NCBI RefSeq assembly: GCF_017163755.1
Contig: NZ_JAFIWC010000030.1
Coordinates: 1-61,087 of the forward strand
From: Xanthomonas sp.
Lineage (GTDB): Bacteria > Pseudomonadota > Gammaproteobacteria > Xanthomonadales > Xanthomonadaceae
Direction of reading: 5' to 3'
DNA: 61,087 nt
The translations under genes and the position numbers were made by a program. Every line of letters starts with the position of its first letter. Positions within the stretch are counted from its first letter, which is position 1. The notes beneath the pieces were generated by a model, which was not told the DNA's origin, made no database searches, and was given only the letters and a program-made list of their open reading frames with translations. Below, one piece after another: positions 3,415 through 15,511 of this stretch.

Positions 3415-3589
3415 CCACATGCACGATGCGGATCGGCCGATGCGACGGCCTGCGCACCAGGTGCGCACTGGCCGCTTCCCACTCGCCAACGCTCGCGCAC
3501 ATGGCATGGATCGACACAATGCAACGGCGCTGCAACGTGCCGGCATCACACTGGGCTGTGTTCTCCTCCTTCCCAGGAACACACGAAAC

Positions 3590-6178
3590 ATGATGTCCAA
3601 GCGTGTCCGAGCTGCGTCCGGCAAGCCCCTCGTTTCGATGCATCGACCACTGGCGGCCGGCATCGGCATCGCGCTGATGCTGGCGGCGGCCCAGGCCGCC
3701 GCGCAGGACGCCTCACCGGCAACGCAAGCCGCTCCCGCGGCGCAAGCGAGCGGTACCGGGCAGGCCGCGACGACGGCATCGGGCCGCAAGAGCGACGACG
3801 GCATCTTCTCGATGGACAAGCTCATCGTCACCGGCACCGGACAGGCGCAGAGCCAGTTCGAGGCGTCCTACGCCATCACCTCGATGAGCGCCGAGCAGAT
3901 CGACAAGCTCGCCCCGCTGAGCCTGGCGAGCCTGGTCGGCTCGATGCCCGGCATCTACGCCGAATCCACCGGCGGCGAAGTGCAGAACGTCTATCGCATC
4001 CGCGGCATTCCCGACGAAGGCTCGTTCACCGTGATCCAGGAGGACGGGATTTCGCCGTACCCGGACAACAACGGCTACTTCTACAAGACCGAGGGCCTGG
4101 TGCGCCCGGACCTGATGACCGAATCGGTGGAGACGGTGCGCGGCGGGCCCTCGCCGGTGTTCGCCTCCAATGCCGCGGCGATCATCAACTTCGTCACCCG
4201 GCAAGGCGGCGACACGCCCGAAGGCGCGGTGCGCACCACCGTCGGCGACACCGGCCTGTACCGGCTGGACGGCTACTGGGCCGGCCCGGTCGGCAAGGAC
4301 ACCTACCTGGCCGCCGGCGGCTTCATCCGCCGCAACGATGGCTATCGCGACGTGGACTTCCCGGCCGACGAAGGCGGGCAGTTCCGCATGAACCTCACGC
4401 GCAAATTCGAAAACGGCAAGGTAACGTTCTCTTTCAAGCACCTGGACGACAAGAACGCGTTCTACATGCCGATCCCGCTGTACGACCCGCGCGACACCTC
4501 GGTGTCGCTGGACCCGCTGATCGACCGCTTCACCGGCACCCTGAGCACGTCCGCGCTGCGCCATGCGAGCATCGTCGCCAGCGATGCCGCCGGCCAGCCG
4601 TTCGCCGAAACCCGCGACCTGTCCGACGGCCGCCACATGAAGTTCAACCACGCCGGGGTGAACCTGGATCTGGCGCTGGACAGCGGCTGGAACCTGTCCA
4701 ACAAGTTCGTCATCAACCGCCTGGACATGACCTTCGACGCGCTGTATTCCAGCAACGCGCCGCAGGATGCGCAGGCCTACGCCAACAGCCGCTTCGCCGC
4801 CGCGTCGCGCGCGTTTGCCGGCACCGCCTCGCTGCGCTACGTCTACACCGACGACGGCAGCGCGTTCGATCCGGCCAGCAGCAACGGCCTGGTCATCCAG
4901 GGCCAGTACCGGGCGATGAACGTGCGCGCTGATTCGTTTGCCGACGACCTGCGCATGACCCGCAGCTTCGACTGGGGCGGCGACAAGCACGACGTCACCC
5001 TCGGCCTGTACGGCGCGTATTACGCGCGCGCCTACGATTCGCGCTACCAGAGCTACCTGTTCGAGACGCGGCAGAACCCGCGCATGATCGACCTGGTGGC
5101 CTACGATGCCGCCGGCAACCGCGTCGGCGGCGTCACCCGGGACGGCGTGGTGATCTACGGCGCCGACCGCACCCAGGGCAAGGCCTATACCAGCATGCTG
5201 GCGCCATACATCGCCGACACCTGGCAGGTGACCGACAAGCTGCGCCTGGAAGGCGGCGTGCGCTACGAGCGCTACCGCTTCCGCGCGTGGAGCATGGACC
5301 GCGCGACCGGCAATCTCGACATGGCCGATACGCTGGCCGACGACGCCGCACGCGTGTTCACCGGCACGCGCACGCCGACCGCGCTCGATGTCGGCGTGAC
5401 CAACTGGACCGCGGGGCTGAACTACGACCTCACCGACACCGTCGGCCTGTACGGGCGCGTGTCGCGCGCGCATCGCGCGCCTTCGGAAGGCGCCAACGCC
5501 GGCAACGTCAACATTCCGATGGCCGAGCAGTACGAGCTGGGCGCCAAGCTCAACTTCGATACCCTGGACGTGTTCGCCACGGCGTTCTACACCAAGTATT
5601 CGCCCTACAACATCAGCACCAGCGCGGTCGACCCGGCCACCGGCGCGGCCCAGTCCAAGGACTACCGCGGCAGCGTGACCAACCCCGGCATCGAACTGGC
5701 GGCGGTATGGACGCCGGCGTCCTGGCTGCGTTTCGATGCCAACCTGACCTACAACGACACGCAGGTGTCCAGCCTGTCGGAGGTCGTCAACAACGGCGCG
5801 GTGGCCAGGGTCGACGTCGACGGCAACCGCCCCAACCGCCAGCCCAAGCTCTACGGCAACGCCGGGCCGACGCTGTACTTCAGCACCGGCGCGCTGGACT
5901 GGGAGGCGTCGCTGCGCTACGCCTACGTCGGCAAGCGCTACGCGGACCTGGAGAACACCACCGAACTGGCCGCCTACCAGACGCTGGCGGCGAACCTGAT
6001 GGCGCGCACCGGCCCATGGGACTTCCAGCTCGCGGTCGACAACCTGACCAACGAGTTCGCGCTGACCGAAGGCAATCCGCGCACCGACACCATTTCCGGC
6101 CAGGGCACCCGCGAGCCGATCTATGGCCGGCCGATCTTCGAGCGCAACACGCGGCTGGTGGTCACCTACCATTTCTGA
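3590..6178 (+). CDS. TonB-dependent outer-membrane receptor
   Basis: 862 aa from the first of two adjacent ATGs at 3590. A basic N-terminus and hydrophobic stretch ending AAAQAAAQ form a signal peptide. A low-complexity Ala/Gln linker precedes the TonB-box-like DKLIVTG. The plug domain follows (YRIRGIPDEGSF, ESVETVRGGPSPVFASNA, FVTRQGGD), then a long beta-barrel ending in aromatic YHF, the usual outer-membrane C-terminal signature. The plug resembles generic carbohydrate or organic-nutrient receptors more than siderophore receptors; the ligand is not known. The next gene, 54 bp downstream with its own ribosome binding site, is a secreted S1/P1-type phosphoesterase, so the two probably process and import the same phosphorylated substrate. 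Confidence 0.93.
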   Translation: MMSKRVRAASGKPLVSMHRPLAAGIGIALMLAAAQAAAQDASPATQAAPAAQASGTGQAATTASGRKSDDGIFSMDKLIVTGTGQAQSQFEASYAITSMSAEQIDKLAPLSLASLVGSMPGIYAESTGGEVQNVYRIRGIPDEGSFTVIQEDGISPYPDNNGYFYKTEGLVRPDLMTESVETVRGGPSPVFASNAAAIINFVTRQGGDTPEGAVRTTVGDTGLYRLDGYWAGPVGKDTYLAAGGFIRRNDGYRDVDFPADEGGQFRMNLTRKFENGKVTFSFKHLDDKNAFYMPIPLYDPRDTSVSLDPLIDRFTGTLSTSALRHASIVASDAAGQPFAETRDLSDGRHMKFNHAGVNLDLALDSGWNLSNKFVINRLDMTFDALYSSNAPQDAQAYANSRFAAASRAFAGTASLRYVYTDDGSAFDPASSNGLVIQGQYRAMNVRADSFADDLRMTRSFDWGGDKHDVTLGLYGAYYARAYDSRYQSYLFETRQNPRMIDLVAYDAAGNRVGGVTRDGVVIYGADRTQGKAYTSMLAPYIADTWQVTDKLRLEGGVRYERYRFRAWSMDRATGNLDMADTLADDAARVFTGTRTPTALDVGVTNWTAGLNYDLTDTVGLYGRVSRAHRAPSEGANAGNVNIPMAEQYELGAKLNFDTLDVFATAFYTKYSPYNISTSAVDPATGAAQSKDYRGSVTNPGIELAAVWTPASWLRFDANLTYNDTQVSSLSEVVNNGAVARVDVDGNRPNRQPKLYGNAGPTLYFSTGALDWEASLRYAYVGKRYADLENTTELAAYQTLAANLMARTGPWDFQLAVDNLTNEFALTEGNPRTDTISGQGTREPIYGRPIFERNTRLVVTYHF

Positions 6179-7557: not shown

Positions 7558-7956
7558 ATGATGGACGGGCAAACGTATTACCACGGCACAAAGGCCGACC
7601 TGAAGGTCGGCGAGCTGATCGAAGCGGGCTACGCCTCCAACTATGGCAACAGGAAACAGGCGACCTTCGTCTACCTGACCGCCACGCTCGATGCGGCCAT
7701 CTGGGGCGCCGAGCTGGCCGTTGGCGAAGGTCGCGGCAGGATCTACATCGTGGCCCCTACCGGGCCGATCGAAGACGATCCGAACCTCACGGACAAGCGC
7801 TTCCCCGGCAACCCCACCCAGTCGTACCGCTGCCGGCAGCCATTGCGCATCCTGGGCGAGGTCGCCGATTGGAACGGCCACGCCCCTGAGCGGCTCAAGG
7901 AGATGCGGGACCATCTCGAGAACCTCGAGCGACTGGGCGTGGAGGCGATCGAATAG
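7558..7956 (+). CDS. arr: Rifampin ADP-ribosyltransferase
   Basis: 132 aa from the first of two consecutive ATGs. Nearly every block of the Arr family is present: YYHGTKADLKVGELI, GYASNYG, VYLTATLDAAIWGAELA, GRGRIYIVAPTGPIEDDPN, TDKRFPGNPTQSYR. The family transfers ADP-ribose from NAD+ to rifamycins and inactivates them in the cytoplasm. The length matches chromosomal Arr proteins. It stands alone; no integron integrase or attC site is seen nearby, so it looks like a resident chromosomal gene rather than a cassette. It converges on the ABC gene to the right. Confidence 0.95.
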   Translation: MMDGQTYYHGTKADLKVGELIEAGYASNYGNRKQATFVYLTATLDAAIWGAELAVGEGRGRIYIVAPTGPIEDDPNLTDKRFPGNPTQSYRCRQPLRILGEVADWNGHAPERLKEMRDHLENLERLGVEAIE

Positions 7957-8116: not shown

Positions 8117-9835
8117 TCAACCGTCCAACGCTGGCCCTGAAAACGCCTGCGCTGACCGCGCCGCTGTTCCGTTCCACGCCACCGTCACCGTATGGAACCG
8201 CCCCAAGCTGGGCCGATGGGCGACGCTGACGACCGCGCAGCCAGGCATGCGCTCGACCAGGAGCGCATACAGCATCGCCTCGGCGTCCAGATCCAGCGCC
8301 GAGGTGGTCTCGTCCAGGAAAAGCACATCGGGCTTCCGCAGCAGGATCCGGGCGAATGCCAAGCGCTGCTGCTCGCCCGGAGACAAGCGTCGCATCCAGT
8401 GCTCCCGCCGCGGCAGCTCCGCGACCAAGCCTGCCAGCCCGACTGCGGACAAGGCCGCGACGGCATCGGGATACGCCAGCGAATCCTCCACCGCCGGATA
8501 GGCCAGGCAGGCGTGCAGCGTCCCGCTCGGCAAGTAGCTGCGCTGGGGCACGAACATCACCTTGCCCTGCGGCAACACGATGTCGCCCCTGCCGTGGCGC
8601 CAGAGGCCGGCCACGGCGCTGAGCAGCAGCGACTTCCCCGACCCCGAGGGGCCGTGAACCAGCACACGCTCTCCCGGGGCGATCTGCAGATGGCCGACAT
8701 GGCCCAGCGGCTCGCCGTCCGGCAACGCGAGCGTGAGGTCGCGGATCTGCAGGGTATCGCCCTCGCCAACGCTGACGCGAATGCCGGTGGGGTCCTGGCC
8801 CTGGCTCCCTGTCGCCCGTTCGAACTCGACCAACCGCTGGAACACCGACCGCAGCAGCGCCAGGTCCTTGTAGCGATAGACGAACCAGGACAAGGCGCCG
8901 CGGACCCGGTTGAACAGGCTGTTGAGCTGCATCACCGTTCCTACCGTGATCTCGCCGGCGAAATAACGCGGGCCGGTGATGAGATAGGGCAGCACCATCG
9001 AGCTTTGCACGTAAAGCGCATTCATGGCCGTGATGCGCTTGGTATAGCCCATCACCCACCGCCAGTTGCTGCGTATCGCCCCGAATGCCTGCTTGAGACC
9101 GGCCGACTCCGCGGGCTCGCCGCGCATCATCGCGACCTGGGCGGCATGCTCGCGGACCCGCACCAGCAGGTGCCGGAAATCCGCTTCCCGGCGCTGCTGC
9201 TCGTAGTCCACCGCGACCAGCCCACGGCCGATCCACTCGATCAGCACCGACCCGGCGACGGCGTAGAGCACGGCCGCCCACAGCATGTACGCCGGAATAT
9301 GGACATCGAACCCCGCCAGCGTAAAGGACAGCGCGCCGGACAAGCCCCAGATCATGGCGGCGAACGTAAAGAAGTCGACCGCATAGTGGAGCGCGCCCAC
9401 CGACAGTCGAAGGGTATCGCTGGCCATGAGCCTGAGATCGTCGGCGATGCGCTGGTCGGGGTTGTCCACCAGGCCTTCGCTTTCGATGCGCCAGTAGGCC
9501 GTGCCACCGAGCCAACGATCAAGGTAGACCGTGGTCAGCCAGTGTCGCCAGCGCATCTCCAGGGCCTGCTCGAACCAGACCCTCGCGGTTCCGGCGCCCA
9601 CGATACCGGCCACGATGAACACCAGTTCCAGCATCTGGCGCCAGAACGCGTCCAGATCCCGCTCCACCAGCGCATCGAAGAAGTTCTTCTGCCAGTACGT
9701 CTGCCGGACCCCGACGTAGGTCAGCAAGGCGTCCAGCCCGACGATCGTCGCAAGCAGGCCGTAGGCACGCCAACGGTCGTCGGACACCCAGTACGGTCGG
9801 ACCAGGCACCAGACGTCCCGGGCGGTCAGCGTCAT
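8117..9835 (-). CDS. SbmA/YddA-type ABC transporter, fused membrane and ATPase domains
   Basis: 572 aa. An N-terminal membrane domain of the ABC_membrane_2/SbmA_BacA type (about residues 20-330, including WRHWLTTVYLDRWL and NPDQRIADDLR) is followed by a complete ATPase: Walker A GPSGSGKS, signature LSPGEQQRLAFAR, Walker B VLFLDETTSALD and a switch His in VAHRP. Relatives such as E. coli YddA, BacA-like proteins and Rv1819c act on peptides or cobalamin-sized hydrophilic solutes. It starts 15 bp after the receptor upstream, so the two form one transcript. The pair suggests uptake of a metal chelate, with this protein moving it or a processed form across the inner membrane. Direction of transport is not decided. 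Confidence 0.9.
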   Translation of the reverse strand: MTLTARDVWCLVRPYWVSDDRWRAYGLLATIVGLDALLTYVGVRQTYWQKNFFDALVERDLDAFWRQMLELVFIVAGIVGAGTARVWFEQALEMRWRHWLTTVYLDRWLGGTAYWRIESEGLVDNPDQRIADDLRLMASDTLRLSVGALHYAVDFFTFAAMIWGLSGALSFTLAGFDVHIPAYMLWAAVLYAVAGSVLIEWIGRGLVAVDYEQQRREADFRHLLVRVREHAAQVAMMRGEPAESAGLKQAFGAIRSNWRWVMGYTKRITAMNALYVQSSMVLPYLITGPRYFAGEITVGTVMQLNSLFNRVRGALSWFVYRYKDLALLRSVFQRLVEFERATGSQGQDPTGIRVSVGEGDTLQIRDLTLALPDGEPLGHVGHLQIAPGERVLVHGPSGSGKSLLLSAVAGLWRHGRGDIVLPQGKVMFVPQRSYLPSGTLHACLAYPAVEDSLAYPDAVAALSAVGLAGLVAELPRREHWMRRLSPGEQQRLAFARILLRKPDVLFLDETTSALDLDAEAMLYALLVERMPGCAVVSVAHRPSLGRFHTVTVAWNGTAARSAQAFSGPALDG

Positions 9836-9850
9836 GGACCGGCAGCCCGG

Positions 9851-12046
9851 TCAAAAAGCGCTGCGCACGGTGACCATGACGTTCCGCGGCTCTCCCGGCG
9901 TGTTGTAGGTGTTCAGCCCGCCAACGCGTTCGTAGTAATGGCGATCGAAAACGTTGTTGACCGCCAGCGTCACCCGCAAGCGGTCGGTGAACCGATACCC
10001 GGCATGGGCGCTAGCGACCGCGTACCCGCCCTGCTCCCTCACCCCTTCCACCCCCGTGCCGACGGTGCCGCTGGATACCTGGGCGCCGCCGCCGAGGGAC
10101 AGCCCGGCCAGCACGCCTTCCTCGAAACGGTAATGGGCGAACAGCTTGAACGAATGCCGCGGCTCGAAGAGGCTGAAGCGCGCGCCCTCCGGGAATGACT
10201 GATGCGCCACGTACCGTGTGCGCAGCTGGGTGTAGCCGGCGGTCAGCTGCAGATTGGGCAGCGGGCTGCCGCTCGCATCCAGTTCCCACCCCTTGACCTC
10301 CACCTCTCCGGCCTGGAGGAAAAAGCCGGGGTTGGACGGGTCCGGGTAGGAGCGGTTCACGTCCCGGGTCTTGAATACCGCGGCAGACAGGTTCAACGCG
10401 CCCCCGCGAAGGCTCGCCTTCGTCCCCAGTTCCATCTGTTTGCCAACGCGCGGATCGATGGCTTCGCCGGACACCTTGCGTTGCGTCTGCGGAATGAAGG
10501 TGTCGGCGTAACTGCCATAGGCGGTCAGACGCTCCGTGACGTGATAGACCGCACCCGCGTAAGGCGTGAACTCGCCATCGACCTTGGCGCCGTCGACCCA
10601 GCGGGTGAGCGGTTGCGGGGCGACCGACCGGTTCTTCACCGAGAACTCGCTCCACCGTCCTCCGGCCACGCCCGTGAGCCGGTCGGTCAGGGCCAGGCGC
10701 AGCTGGCCATAGGCGCCGCCTTGCCGGGTGATGGAGTTGAAGCCGGAGGTGTAAGCGATGGGAATGTTCTCGACGAGATCGGGGTCGGCGATCGGAACAT
10801 TGCGTATCGGGGCGCCCTGGCCCGAGCGCGTCGTGCTCTCGTATTCCTCGACGTTGGCGCCGACCAGCGCCTGGTGCTCGCGCCCCCACATCATGAAAGG
10901 GCCTGCGGCGAATACGTCCAGGCCATGCCGGACTTCGCCGTTGTCGCTTTGTCGGCGCGCATAGCTGGCCACGGTTCCGGTGGCGGGGTTGACGCCGGTG
11001 GTCGGGTAGCTGTCCTTGTAGTACCAATCCAGCGTCTGGCGGCTCGCGCGCGCCTTGAGCGACCAGCCGCCCTCGAAGCCATGCTCCAGATCCAGGGACA
11101 GCGAATCCTTGTCCCACTTCTGGATGACCCAGTCTGGGTAGACGTAGGTGGAACGGGGCACGTCCAGGAACTGCTGGTTCGTGTACGCCGGCAAGCCCGA
11201 ATACGGCATGACGTCGTCTTTCTGCTGCGTCGCCGACAGCGACAACGTGGTGTTGGCGCCCAGGTCGTAGTCCAGGGTGCCGTAGAACAGATGTTTGCTC
11301 GAATCGGCCTGGTCGTAGAAATATTCGCGACGGTGGGAGGACACGACCACACGGCTTCGCAACGAGCCGCCGTCGTTCAATGGGCCGCCCACGTCCACTT
11401 CGCCGCGGTAATTGGACCAGGAGCCCGCCGACACGGCCAACGAGCCGCCGAACGCGTCGCGCCCACGCTTGCGGACGAAATTGGCCACGCCCCCCGGTTG
11501 GCTGGAACCTTGGAAGATGCCGCCAGGCCCCCGCAGCACTTCCACCCTGTCGTAGATCGCCAGGTCGAACTGCTGGAACGCGGACAGGGCCCCGTATGCC
11601 GGAATGCCGTCATAGGACCCTTCCAGGTTGTAGCCGCGCGAACGGATCTGGCTGGTCGCGCCATCCCAGGGCGTGACCGTGACCCCGGTGACCTCGCGAA
11701 GCGCGCTTTCGACCGTGACCAGATTCTGGTCCTCGATACGCTGTCGCGTGATCACGCTGACCGAATTGGGGATGTCCAACACCGCGACGGGCGCTTTGCC
11801 GCCCCAGGTGACGACCGGGCTCGTGTAGGAACCGGTTCCCTCCGTGGTGCCCTCGCGCTTGCCGCGCACATTGACCGTGGAAAGCTCCGAGACGTCCCCT
11901 TGTTTCTCGTCCGGCTCCGGCTCTTGGGCGCCAACCTCGCCCGCGAATGTGAGCGCGGCGGAAAGCACGCCTAGTTGAAGGACCCCACCCTTTCCGGAGC
12001 GAAGGTGGAACCAGCCGATGCCGGAACGAAAACGGGTTTTGATCAC
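9851..12046 (-). CDS. FhuE/ferric-siderophore-type TonB-dependent receptor
   Basis: 731 aa from the proposed GTG at 12046. Signal peptide VLQLGVLSAALTFAGEVGAQ, TonB-box-like LSTVNVRGK, and a siderophore-receptor plug: SVSVITRQRIEDQNLVTVE, IRSRGYNLEGSYDGIP, YDRVEVLRGPGGIFQGSSQPGG and FVRKRG. The barrel ends in F. The plug wording is that of the FhuE/FpvA/PupA hydroxamate class. An open frame reaches a TTG at 12130, but that TTG overlaps a TACAAT hexamer and lies six bases from a palindromic operator, so an internal GTG (12046 or 12094) is more likely. No signalling extension for a sigma regulator is seen. It forms an operon with the ABC protein downstream. The Zur-like operator argues for zinc- rather than iron-controlled expression. 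Confidence 0.9.
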   Translation of the reverse strand: MIKTRFRSGIGWFHLRSGKGGVLQLGVLSAALTFAGEVGAQEPEPDEKQGDVSELSTVNVRGKREGTTEGTGSYTSPVVTWGGKAPVAVLDIPNSVSVITRQRIEDQNLVTVESALREVTGVTVTPWDGATSQIRSRGYNLEGSYDGIPAYGALSAFQQFDLAIYDRVEVLRGPGGIFQGSSQPGGVANFVRKRGRDAFGGSLAVSAGSWSNYRGEVDVGGPLNDGGSLRSRVVVSSHRREYFYDQADSSKHLFYGTLDYDLGANTTLSLSATQQKDDVMPYSGLPAYTNQQFLDVPRSTYVYPDWVIQKWDKDSLSLDLEHGFEGGWSLKARASRQTLDWYYKDSYPTTGVNPATGTVASYARRQSDNGEVRHGLDVFAAGPFMMWGREHQALVGANVEEYESTTRSGQGAPIRNVPIADPDLVENIPIAYTSGFNSITRQGGAYGQLRLALTDRLTGVAGGRWSEFSVKNRSVAPQPLTRWVDGAKVDGEFTPYAGAVYHVTERLTAYGSYADTFIPQTQRKVSGEAIDPRVGKQMELGTKASLRGGALNLSAAVFKTRDVNRSYPDPSNPGFFLQAGEVEVKGWELDASGSPLPNLQLTAGYTQLRTRYVAHQSFPEGARFSLFEPRHSFKLFAHYRFEEGVLAGLSLGGGAQVSSGTVGTGVEGVREQGGYAVASAHAGYRFTDRLRVTLAVNNVFDRHYYERVGGLNTYNTPGEPRNVMVTVRSAF

Positions 12047-12135
12047 GAAGGAGGCCGCAAGTTGGGTGGGTGCGCGAATTGGGTCGTGAGGCACCGCGCT
12101 TTGCCCATCCCTTGAGGGAACCCGTCTCAATTGTA

Positions 12136-12152
12136 ACGTTATTTCATAACGT
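12136..12152 (-). promoter_or_regulatory. Zur-box-like operator before the FhuE-type receptor
   Basis: ACGTTATTTCATAACGT is a perfect inverted repeat with 7-bp arms and 3-base spacer. It contains GTTAT-N3-ATAAC, the core of the gammaproteobacterial Zur consensus ATGTTATANTATAACAT, and matches 12 of the 16 defined consensus positions. A TACAAT -10-like hexamer (12135-12130, read leftward) follows at once, so a bound repressor would cover the promoter. Confidence 0.55.
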
Positions 12153-12490
12153 CAATCGACCAGCGTCTGCCTCCGGGACACGGCGTCACTGTTCGTCCGG
12201 CTCGTCCCAGGCGCGGATCCCTGCAGCGCTTGCCGTGTCGCGCCGGTGCGGCCGGACAACGCCACGTCAGCGATGGATGGCGTGGCCCGGATACGCACGC
12301 ATCCGAAGGCTCAGGGCGCCGAGCAACCGACCCCAGGCCAGCAACAGGCGACGTGCACAACGGCGCGCCTCTCGGTTCGCAGTACATGCCCTTGTTTCCG
12401 AAACACGCCAAGGACCGAGCATCCGACCCAAGCGACAGCCAACTCCTTTCGAGGCCGCCGGCTGCACCAGCCCTGGCGACCATTATTGTT
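12153..12490. other. Intergenic region between the two Zur-like sites
   Basis: About 340 bp of GC-rich sequence with no credible gene on either strand. Short frames exist but none has a recognisable product. It separates the divergent receptor promoters. Confidence 0.6.
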
Positions 12491-12507
12491 ATGTTATAAA
12501 GTTACAT
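12491..12507 (+). promoter_or_regulatory. Zur-box-like operator before the znuD-like gene
   Basis: ATGTTATAAAGTTACAT matches the gammaproteobacterial Zur consensus ATGTTATANTATAACAT at 13 of 16 defined positions; the left half is perfect. The wider element TTATGT...ACATAA (12489-12509) is also an inverted repeat. It lies about 130 bp before the start of a receptor with a metal-binding His/Asp loop, and is an AT-rich patch in GC-rich surroundings. Confidence 0.65.
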
Positions 12508-12639
12508 AAGCCTGAGGCACTCCTTGCAATCACGGCATGTGCCGAACGCGTTGCAGCGATGCAGCGCGGTGCGCGAAGCGTCCAGGCGCTCGTAGACCCA
12601 CTCGCCACTGCCGGCCTTTACTGAAGCCATGGAATCCGC

Positions 12640-14748
12640 ATGACGACCAACCGCAACGCCCTCGCCGCCAGCATCGCCACCGCCCTGCTGGCCACCGCTC
12701 TGTTCCCGCAGCACGCGCGCGCCGAAACTTCGCCCGCGTCTGCCTCCACCCTGGACACCCTCCACGTCACCGGCATGGCCGAGGACGCCAGCAAGGTCGC
12801 CTCGCCGGTCAGCGTCATCGGCGGGGACAGGATCTTCCAGCAAGGTGGCGGCACCCTGGGCGAAGTGCTCGACGGGCTGCCCGGCGTGCGCGCCGACAAT
12901 TTCGGCGCCGGCGCCGGCCGCCCAGTGATCCGCGGCCAGACCGCCCCGCGCGTCAAGGTGCTGTCGGACAGTTCCGCCGTCCTGGACGCATCGGACATCT
13001 CGCCGGACCACGCGGTCACCGTCGATCCGCTGCTGGGCGAACGCATCGAAGTGCTGCGCGGCCCGGCCACCTTGCTCTATGGCGGCGGCGCGATCGGCGG
13101 CGTGGTGAACGTGCTGGACAACCGGATCCCGAACCGGCTGCCGGACAACGGCCTGGAGGGACGCCTCCTGATCCGTGGCAACAGCGTGGCCGACGAGCGC
13201 GTCGGCGCCGCCGCCGTCACCGGCCAGGCGGGCGCCAACCTGGTGCTGCACGCCGAGGGCTCATACCGCGATACCGACGACTACCGCGCGCCGGACCTGG
13301 ACGAATCGCGGGTGGACGGCACCTTCAGCCGTTCAAGCAATGGCAGCGTCGGCGCCGCGTGGGTCACCGACAACGGCTATGTCGGCCTGTCGTACTCCTA
13401 CCGCGACGATCACTACGGCCTGCCCGGCCACAGCCACGAATACGAAGGTTGCCACCCGCACGGCAGCGCCTTGCACTGCGGCTCGCACGACCACGCCGAC
13501 GGCGACGACCACGACCACGACCACGACCACGAACATGATGATGAGCACGTGGCCGCCATCGACCTGAAGAGCAAGCGCATCGACCTGCGCGGCGAATACC
13601 GCGATCCGTTTCCCGGCATCCGCCGCATCCGCTTCCGCGCCAACCACACCGACTACCGCCACGACGAACTGGAAGGCGCAGAGGTCACCACCACGTTCGC
13701 CAACAAGGGCTACGACAGCCGCGTCGAGCTCGAGCATGTGCCGCTGGGCGGCTGGACCGGCATCTTCGGCGTGCAGCACGCCGACGCCACGTTCAGCGCC
13801 TCCGGCGTGGAGGCGTTCCTGCCGACGGTGGACACCCGCTCCACCGGCCTGTTCCTGGTCGAGCACCTGGAAGTCAACGACCGGTGGCACTTCGAACTGG
13901 GCGGCCGCCACGAATGGCTGAGCCACCAGCCGCGCGACGACGCGCGGAATCGGCCGAAGTTCGACGACACCGCCAGTTCGTTCTCCGGCGCGGCGATCTG
14001 GTCGTTCCGTCCGGACCTTTCGCTCACCTTCTCGCTGTCCCGCTCCCAGCGCCTGCCGCATGCGCAGGAACTGTATGCGCGCGGCATCCACATGGCGACC
14101 AATACCTACGAATGCGGCCTGCTGCGCAGCGCGCTCACGTGCGGGGGCACCGCCAACGACGCCGGCTACGGCGAGGAGACCTCGAAGAATGCCGAGCTGA
14201 TGCTGCGCAAGACCGAAGGACCGCTGACCTTCAGCCTCGGCGCGTTCGCCAACGACGTGGACGACTACATCTACGCGCGCACGCTGGACCAGTTCGAAGC
14301 CTTCCGGCTGATCAAATACACCCAGGCCGACGTGGAGTTCCGCGGCGTGGAAGCCGAACTCGGCTATCAGTTCAACGAGCGGCTGTCCGGCACCTTGTTC
14401 GGCGATCGCACGCGCGCACGCTTCGCCGATGGCGGCGGCGACGTGCCGCGCATTCCCGCCGCACGCTTCGGCGGCCGCGCCAACCTGGCCATGGGCCGGT
14501 TCGACGGCGAGCTGGAACTGTACCGTGTCAACCGCCAGACCCACATCGCCGACTATGAAACACGAACCCCGGCCTACGACATGCTCAACCTGACCGTGGC
14601 CTACGCGTTCGCCGGTGGCAGCAGCCGCGTATTCCTGCGCGGCAGCAACCTGCTGGACGAGCAGGTCTGGAACCATGCCTCGTTCCTGGCCGACACCGTG
14701 CCGCAACCGGGGCGCAACGTCAGCGTCGGCTTCAGCTACACGTTCTGA
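12640..14748 (+). CDS. znuD: ZnuD-like TonB-dependent zinc receptor
   Basis: 702 aa. Signal peptide ending QHARA, then a TonB-box-like LDTLHVTG and a plug (GGGTLGEVLDGLPGVRADNFG, RPVIRGQ, RIEVLRGPATLLYGGGAIGGVVNV). The barrel ends in SYTF. Residues ~264-306 form an extracellular-loop insert rich in His and Asp with two Cys (HSHEYEGCHPHG, then DHDHDHDHEH), like the zinc-binding loop of neisserial ZnuD. A Zur-like box precedes the gene. In the family, ZnuD imports free zinc across the outer membrane under zinc starvation. The DNA encoding the loop is a GAC/CAC repeat tract around 13500-13545 that could vary in length. A methyltransferase-like gene starts 13 bp downstream in the same transcript. 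Confidence 0.88.
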   Translation: MTTNRNALAASIATALLATALFPQHARAETSPASASTLDTLHVTGMAEDASKVASPVSVIGGDRIFQQGGGTLGEVLDGLPGVRADNFGAGAGRPVIRGQTAPRVKVLSDSSAVLDASDISPDHAVTVDPLLGERIEVLRGPATLLYGGGAIGGVVNVLDNRIPNRLPDNGLEGRLLIRGNSVADERVGAAAVTGQAGANLVLHAEGSYRDTDDYRAPDLDESRVDGTFSRSSNGSVGAAWVTDNGYVGLSYSYRDDHYGLPGHSHEYEGCHPHGSALHCGSHDHADGDDHDHDHDHEHDDEHVAAIDLKSKRIDLRGEYRDPFPGIRRIRFRANHTDYRHDELEGAEVTTTFANKGYDSRVELEHVPLGGWTGIFGVQHADATFSASGVEAFLPTVDTRSTGLFLVEHLEVNDRWHFELGGRHEWLSHQPRDDARNRPKFDDTASSFSGAAIWSFRPDLSLTFSLSRSQRLPHAQELYARGIHMATNTYECGLLRSALTCGGTANDAGYGEETSKNAELMLRKTEGPLTFSLGAFANDVDDYIYARTLDQFEAFRLIKYTQADVEFRGVEAELGYQFNERLSGTLFGDRTRARFADGGGDVPRIPAARFGGRANLAMGRFDGELELYRVNRQTHIADYETRTPAYDMLNLTVAYAFAGGSSRVFLRGSNLLDEQVWNHASFLADTVPQPGRNVSVGFSYTF

Positions 14749-14761
14749 GCGGGGCTCACGG

Positions 14762-15511
14762 ATGACGCTGTACGAGCGCGTCGGAGAACTCCACGGCCAC
14801 CGGCCGTGGGGCTCCTTCCTGGATGCCGGGACCGGACCGTCTTCGATCCGCTGGCTGGAAACCCTGGCCACCGAACGCTGGACCGCCGTGACCGGCTCGC
14901 CGCAGATGCGCGAGAAAACCGCGCAGGCCATGGCCGCACCGCCGCGAGCGCAGGATCGGCTGGTGGTCGGGAACTGGATGGATCCGGAGCTGCTGGGCGG
15001 CGAGCGCTTCGACACGGTGCTGGCCGATTACCTGCTGGGCGCCGTCGAGGGCTTCGCGCCCTATTGGCAGGGCCAGCTGTTCGGGCGGCTTCGGCCGCTG
15101 GTCGCCAAGCGCCTGTACGTCATCGGCCTGCAGCCGTATATCCACGGGAGGCCCGATACGACTGCCGGGCGCATCGTCAACGAGATCGGTCGCCTGCGCG
15201 ACGCCTGCCTGCTGCTGGCCGGCGACAGCCCCTACCGCGAATACCCTCTCGACTGGTCGCTGCGAAGCCTGGAGGCAGCCGGCTTCCGCATCGTGGACGC
15301 ACGGCTGTTGCCGATCACCTACGGCCCGCGTTTCATCCACAGCCAGTTGGCCATGTGCATGCGCGCGATCGACAAGCTCCCCGACCGCGGCCTGGCCGTT
15401 GCCCTGCACCGGCATGCGGCCGACGTCCAGGCCCGTGCCCTGGCCACCTGCAAGCAACTCGGCGGGCTGCGTCACGGCGACGACTATCTCATCGTCGCCG
15501 AACCGAACTGA
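14762..15511 (+). CDS. SAM-dependent methyltransferase-like protein in the znuD operon
   Basis: 249 aa. The N-terminal motif FLDAGTGPSSIRWLE is a class I SAM-binding Gly loop, and FDTVLADYLLGAVEGFAPYW is at the motif IV position. No transmembrane segment or signal peptide is seen, so it is cytoplasmic. It lies 13 bp behind the zinc receptor, so expression should follow zinc supply. The substrate is unknown. Because nicotianamine/staphylopine synthases also use SAM on a related fold, a role in making a metallophore is a possible alternative to plain methyl transfer, but no specific motif for that was recognised. Confidence 0.75.
   Translation: MTLYERVGELHGHRPWGSFLDAGTGPSSIRWLETLATERWTAVTGSPQMREKTAQAMAAPPRAQDRLVVGNWMDPELLGGERFDTVLADYLLGAVEGFAPYWQGQLFGRLRPLVAKRLYVIGLQPYIHGRPDTTAGRIVNEIGRLRDACLLLAGDSPYREYPLDWSLRSLEAAGFRIVDARLLPITYGPRFIHSQLAMCMRAIDKLPDRGLAVALHRHAADVQARALATCKQLGGLRHGDDYLIVAEPN

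Follow-up and report, generated by a model that had tools for sequence, protein, structure and literature searches.

The analysed window is a 61,087-nucleotide contig (C23; NZ_JAFIWC010000030.1) of a Xanthomonas sp. draft genome (G000, 5.07 Mb in 75 contigs, rated 100% complete). It contains two divergent gene pairs. The left arm, on the reverse strand, encodes a siderophore-class TonB-dependent receptor and an ATP-binding cassette (ABC) protein, while the right arm, on the forward strand, encodes a ZnuD-like receptor and a small protein. Each pair is preceded by a predicted Zur-type operator. The distinguished features are as follows.

8117..9835, reverse strand: ABC protein of the SbmA/BacA, YddA and Rv1819c kind, membrane domain plus ATPase (PF06472, PF05992, PF00005)
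9851..12046, reverse strand: siderophore-class TonB-dependent receptor, FptA/FauA side (TIGR01783, 1xkw)
12128..12155, no strand: left Zur-type operator, predicted; two overlapping dyads with a 5-bp offset (24.3 and 22.5 bits)
12483..12510, no strand: right Zur-type operator, predicted; two overlapping dyads with a 5-bp offset (27.4 and 26.4 bits)
12640..14748, forward strand: ZnuD-like TonB-dependent receptor containing a His/Asp-rich segment (NF038289, PDB 4rdr)
14762..15511, forward strand: small protein directly 3′ of ZnuD, perhaps a class I methyltransferase (sub-threshold Methyltransf_12/25 matches)

The left operator includes the palindrome ACGTTATTTCATAACGT (12136-12152) and the right one ATGTTATAAAGTTACAT (12491-12507), exactly where a preliminary description of this DNA had placed two Zur-box-like palindromes. 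Both were scored with a symmetric 23-bp matrix fitted, without the window, to the regions upstream of 34 znuD/zrgA loci of other genomes. The 34 loci were drawn from 39 scanned; those left out were the window itself (L026), L057 and L058 (which repeat the site of L056), and L061 and L062 (which repeat that of L060). The fitted consensus is nnAnTGTTATAnTATAACAnTnn, which we take to be the usual Zur form; since the fit was seeded with a consensus of known type, it does not amount to de novo discovery. The best site reached at least 18 bits in all 20 znuD and in 9 of the 14 zrgA training loci, although these scores are circular.

Within the window the four top positions were 12488 (27.4 bits), 12483 (26.4), 12133 (24.3) and 12128 (22.5), the fifth scoring 13.4. 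The window, shuffled 60 times with a first-order Markov model, gave at most 15.0 bits. When the 76 bases around each site were permuted, none of 20,000 permutations reached the observed score for either site. A matrix built from znuD sites alone (n = 18; 18 of the 20 loci, leaving out L027 and L030) returned the same top four positions (28.7, 24.3, 24.0 and 19.2 bits; next 12.4). No match of at least 18 bits was found in a 226,412-base control, which was kept separate from locus L085 and the candidate-site loci. The pattern RYGTTAT-N3-ATAACRY occurs without mismatch at two places in the whole genome, the left palindrome and a site upstream of merC on contig C22; with up to two mismatches it occurs at 15 places, compared with 8 for the reversed control pattern.

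In the E. coli Zur structure two dimers occupy overlapping sites with the skeleton RNNNYRNNRYNNYRNNNY (PMC4219657). The two dimer motifs in this skeleton can be read as offset by 5 bp; the left operator fits the skeleton at 8 of 8 positions and the right one at 7 of 8. The purine/pyrimidine skeleton is by itself weak evidence, since the window contains 254 full matches where about 239 would be expected. The left operator also agrees at 15 of 19 positions with the Caulobacter znuL operator, whose promoter is bound by Zur in gel shift and gives zinc- and Zur-responsive lacZ fusions (PMC4176598). No Fur-like site in 12050-12640 matched more than 10 of the 19 positions of a Fur consensus, and a sigma-70 promoter scan of 12040-12660 found none. 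From the centre of the left operator (12144) it is 98 bp to GTG 12046, the likely start of the receptor. This start replaced TTG 12130 after alignment with the Stenotrophomonas rhizophila protein.

Six peptide patterns, run against 84,980 species genomes, yielded two receptor orthologs, in S. rhizophila DE0483 and Luteimonas sp. FCS-9; such a scan finds close relatives only. The left operator is kept at both (L023 and L024), that is, in two other genera. In S. rhizophila the receptor (73% identity), the ABC protein (68%) and the gene order are conserved, with an intergenic gap of 19 bp as against 15 bp in the window. The operator there scores 30.9 bits, shares the 18-base core GTTATGAAATAACGTTAC with the left operator of the window and is centred 100 bp ahead of the start codon, compared with 98 bp here. 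The Luteimonas receptor (70%) has a 26.8-bit operator and lies about 4 kb from a merC//zrgA zinc operon (ZrgA, ABC and a MacB-type permease) with a 35.4-bit box; a second TonB receptor, 34% identical to the left-arm receptor of the window, stands next to the Luteimonas receptor. The genes, their order, the operators and the conservation of these are shown by sequence. The top matrix ranks, the shuffle and permutation controls and, for the left arm, the two orthologous operators bear out the Zur boxes proposed for both arms, and these sequence data strongly favour regulation of either arm by Zur.

A candidate regulator is encoded at C12:41782-42150, behind a gltX-like gene (a neighbour named by eye). 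Its product matches the Fur family (PF01475) and is 67-75% identical to the products of genes adjoining znuD in three training loci. In 8 of 20 znuD loci a similar gene, in some cases cut off by the end of the locus, is found no more than 1.5 kb from znuD, and on account of this likeness we call the protein Zur. Elsewhere in the genome the same matrix gave 37.0 bits upstream of merC and 28.5 bits upstream of an ABC-2 operon; a site of 20.7 bits separates an AraC gene from the gene of a further TonB receptor. The ABC-2 operon (G000:C75:36000-52000, L068) encodes an ATPase, two DUF3526 permeases and, at its end, a TonB receptor, and it fits the description of Caulobacter ZnuGHI. The site shared by the AraC and receptor genes is located 8 kb from this operon, and its core resembles, by eye, the Caulobacter znuM operator. 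A third Fur-family protein (G000:C4:111418-111591, L003) matches only half of the family profile; its gene adjoins one resembling, by eye, a gene for a siderophore-interacting protein.

The left-arm receptor matches TIGR01783 with 333 bits (cut-off 223.5), and PF07715 and PF00593 above their cut-offs. None of the equivalog cut-offs compared was reached, including those of FauA and FhuE (290 bits to the FhuE model NF007447, cut-off 666). Among solved structures it is closest to 1xkw, the receptor for Fe(III)-pyochelin (E 9.7e-106), followed by FauA and FpvA, with FhuE lower. Of the earlier label "FhuE-type (siderophore-class)", the class therefore holds, while the FhuE part gives way to FptA, FauA and FpvA as nearest solved relatives.

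The ABC gene follows after 15 bp. Its product matches PF06472 (E 1e-43), PF05992 (E 4.5e-33) and PF00005 (E 4e-17), with both membrane-domain profiles above cut-off. By profile it is a SbmA/BacA-type membrane domain fused to an ATPase, in agreement with the SbmA/YddA-like assignment made previously. The ATPase domain, above cut-off at residues 382-512, places it on the YddA/Rv1819c side; SbmA proper, a SLiPT without a nucleotide-binding domain, is ruled out by it. The best solved relative is 6tqe (E 1.4e-77), which we take to be Rv1819c; this side of the family is named after E. coli YddA. A structural paper from 2026 describes the function of YddA-type ABC proteins as unknown (PMC13316013).

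In the right arm, the receptor matches NF038289 (Zn_piracy_ZnuD) over its full length with 670 bits (E 4e-201) and ZnuD in PDB entry 4rdr with E 7e-107. As the curated cut-off of the profile is 950 bits, the protein is ZnuD-like, as first described, and not a strict ZnuD. The "SAM-dependent enzyme" of the preliminary description (SAM, S-adenosylmethionine) is a weak label for the small protein, whose methyltransferase matches are sub-threshold (E 0.03 and 0.07) and whose predicted structure, with a mean predicted local distance difference test score of 52, is too poor for fold reading. It was found behind ZnuD in 2 of 21 loci (flanks up to 1.5 kb). In genome G043 (L070, G043:C10:28000-46000) a ZnuD ortholog (85%) is followed by the small protein (78%) and a divergent Fur-family gene, the Zur-like product of which is 39% identical to Zur of the present genome; the box of that ortholog scores 29.8 bits, the locus being part of the training set.

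Neither ZnuA (PF01297) nor a ZnuB/ABC-3 permease (PF00950) was matched in this genome. ZnuA is missing from 19 of the 20 genus genomes, this one included (18 of 19 genus mates), and the left-arm receptor is absent from all 19 genus mates at E 1e-120. Being the norm of the genus, the absence of ZnuA says nothing special about this ABC protein, and it was rejected as proof that an SbmA-like protein replaces ZnuABC. ZrgA had no match in this genome and is present in 18 of 149 family genomes. The genome encodes one ZIP protein, and no box above 11 bits was found in its locus. The proposed use of an SbmA-like protein instead of ZnuABC is further weakened by the ZIP protein, by the Zur-boxed ZnuGHI-like ABC operon, which would be the likelier general inner-membrane route, and by Luteimonas, where the YddA-type ABC gene was not found in the 18-kb locus. 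Zur targets listed for X. campestris in a review are znuABC and two TonB receptors (PMC6103462). A zincophore system, the possibility raised in the preliminary description, would imply synthesis of a metallophore. No synthase was found among the seven window proteins scanned, and inspection of L023 and L024 by eye revealed none either (no genome-wide synthase search was made). With no synthesis gene recognised nearby, the cell probably takes up a chelator that other organisms make.

Taking the two arms together, we regard it as fairly probable, from sequence, that the left arm imports, under repression by Zur, a metal chelate taken from other organisms (of zinc, or of cobalt sparing zinc), with an inner-membrane step of the YddA/SbmA type. 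Zur, probably as two dimers, would sit on both operators and repress both operons, and zinc shortage would release them. The right arm would then supply the ZnuD-like receptor. The left-arm receptor would bring a small-molecule metal chelate, carrying zinc or a zinc-sparing metal such as cobalt, into the periplasm, from where the YddA/SbmA-type ABC protein would move the chelate, or its ligand, across the inner membrane. Zur binding, cotranscription, the direction of transport, the ligand and the metal are what we infer here; the cargo may be a zinc chelate, and cobalt or iron chelates are also possible. We propose only tentatively that the YddA-type protein, controlled by Zur, moves a zinc (or cobalt) chelate intact through the inner membrane. 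If it does, the YddA family gains a defined cargo, and this genome, in a genus mostly without ZnuA, a further inner-membrane route.

The receptor-ABC pair is rare and patchy: two receptor orthologs came from the scan for close relatives, and this genome alone passed the receptor thresholds among 149 family genomes (1e-150) and 20 genus genomes (1e-120). It looks acquired. More distant YddA-type relatives (40-44% identity; present, at E 1e-125, in 7 of the 369 class genomes, counting this one) were considered as further zinc operons and rejected, since five of the six other loci had no box above 13 bits. At the sixth, a 31.3-bit Zur-type site (L085:9170-9192) precedes a small gene, carboxymuconolactone-decarboxylase-like by eye, directly upstream of a YddA-type ABC gene (41% identity). 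This locus was not used because the box lies about 560 bp upstream of the ABC gene and directly before another gene. Three family relatives of the ABC protein at 36-39% (L072-L074; 4 of 149 family genomes at E 1e-60, this one included) had no box above 5 bits; a receptor gene was seen upstream by eye in these loci, with a weak 25% match to the window receptor in two of the three.

Several observations weigh against a Zur-repressed zinc-chelate importer. Iron chelates are the cargo of the receptor's named relatives, and the Zur-controlled receptor-importer PA2911-2914 of P. aeruginosa may carry pyochelin-cobalt (PMC11481552); the cargo is therefore not necessarily zinc. Among plasmid relatives (six loci examined among the 15 matches listed, of 1126 records with a match), Comamonas receptors (54%) stand behind Fur-family genes, with a Fur-like stretch before them by eye, and the Zur-matrix maxima of the whole loci are 5.8 and 7.2 bits. 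These Fur-family proteins were compared with Zur of this genome, to which they are 30% and 24% identical, with its third Fur-family member and with the Zur-like product of G043. In Acidovorax a receptor (38%) and ABC protein (46%) lie behind sigma/FecR genes (maximum 13.6 bits), and one Methylocystis and two Paracoccus loci had no Zur-type box (at most 11.6 bits). Judging by such loci, the pair may serve for iron chelates in other organisms and have come under Zur in this family. A switch of one receptor type between iron-type and zinc-type regulation is suggested as well. The seeded matrix, the Luteimonas locus and L085, whose 31.3-bit box precedes a gene without known zinc role so that a high score alone is no proof, count on the same side.

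We consider it quite unlikely that the left arm is an importer of an iron (or mixed) xenosiderophore merely placed under Zur, with iron as cargo and zinc starvation only as signal. The FptA/FauA-like receptor and the regulatory genes of the Comamonas and Acidovorax relatives speak for this, as does E. coli yddA-yddB-pqqL, whose expression rises in a fur mutant, although iron level does not raise it by itself (PMC3855560); the lack of a Fur-like site above 10/19 near the operators, the retention of the Zur-type operator in three genera and the zinc island in Luteimonas speak against it. Somewhat unlikely is the export of an emptied chelator or of excess chelate by the ABC protein, the metal being taken into the cytoplasm by the ZnuGHI-like or the ZIP protein, both of which this genome encodes. 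Such export is compatible with Zur control, so our estimates for the readings do not sum to one. Mycobacterial BacA is reported to transport cobalamin in both directions (PMC10960864), the Zur-controlled importer of P. aeruginosa is paired with a Zur-controlled MacB exporter (PMC11481552), and the Luteimonas receptor stands without this ABC protein. Import is favoured in turn by the recurrence of receptor-ABC pairs in S. rhizophila, Acidovorax and E. coli yddAB, and by SbmA itself being an importer (PMC13316013). That the palindromes are chance AT-rich dyads or sites of another regulator, as seeding and L085 might suggest, is very improbable given the shuffle and permutation controls, conservation across genera and the same motif before znuD, merC and the ZnuGHI-like genes.

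A Zur-type operator before a receptor and YddA-type pair ties a YddA-type protein to zinc starvation. The left arm offers a direct test of YddA-type cargo, and it bears on zinc import in bacteria without ZnuABC. A Zur-controlled SbmA/YddA-type ABC protein was not reported among the literature matches listed, in which subscription literature is thinly covered.

Two other features of the window lie to the left of the arms. A third TonB-dependent receptor gene (3419-6178, forward strand) has none of the ten best Zur-matrix positions near it. An Arr-like rifampin ADP-ribosyltransferase gene (7558-7956, forward strand; PF12120, E 2e-49) is flanked by a gene without Pfam match and by the end of the ABC gene.

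The nearest known counterpart of the left arm is PA2911-PA2914, where a siderophore-class TonB receptor and an inner-membrane transporter likewise share a Zur-controlled operon proposed to relieve zinc shortage. The transporter there is a classical multi-gene ABC importer, whereas here it is a single full-length SbmA/YddA-type ABC protein (PMC11481552). A Zur-controlled receptor with an importer is thus already known, and the YddA-type partner is the new part. The E. coli yddA-yddB-pqqL operon combines a YddA-type ABC protein with a TonB receptor, but differs in its increase in a fur mutant and its peptidase PqqL, and zinc control is not described in the available part of the source (PMC3855560). 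In the Caulobacter crescentus Zur regulon (znuK, znuL, znuM and znuGHI) TonB receptors are Zur-repressed, as proposed here, and an operon answering to ZnuGHI is present in this genome (likened by description, not by protein sequence); unlike in the left arm, no adjoining SbmA-type ABC protein is described in the excerpts of that paper (PMC4176598). The P. aeruginosa pseudopaline system (cntOLMI/zrmABCD) also unites Zur control with a siderophore-class receptor, but includes a synthase, none of which was found among the seven scanned window proteins, and the left-arm receptor is nearer to FptA (358 bits) than to CntO (138 bits). Finally, the right-arm receptor resembles Neisseria ZnuD by profile and solved structure, while differing in its NCBIfam score (670 of 950 bits) and in its small methyltransferase-like partner.

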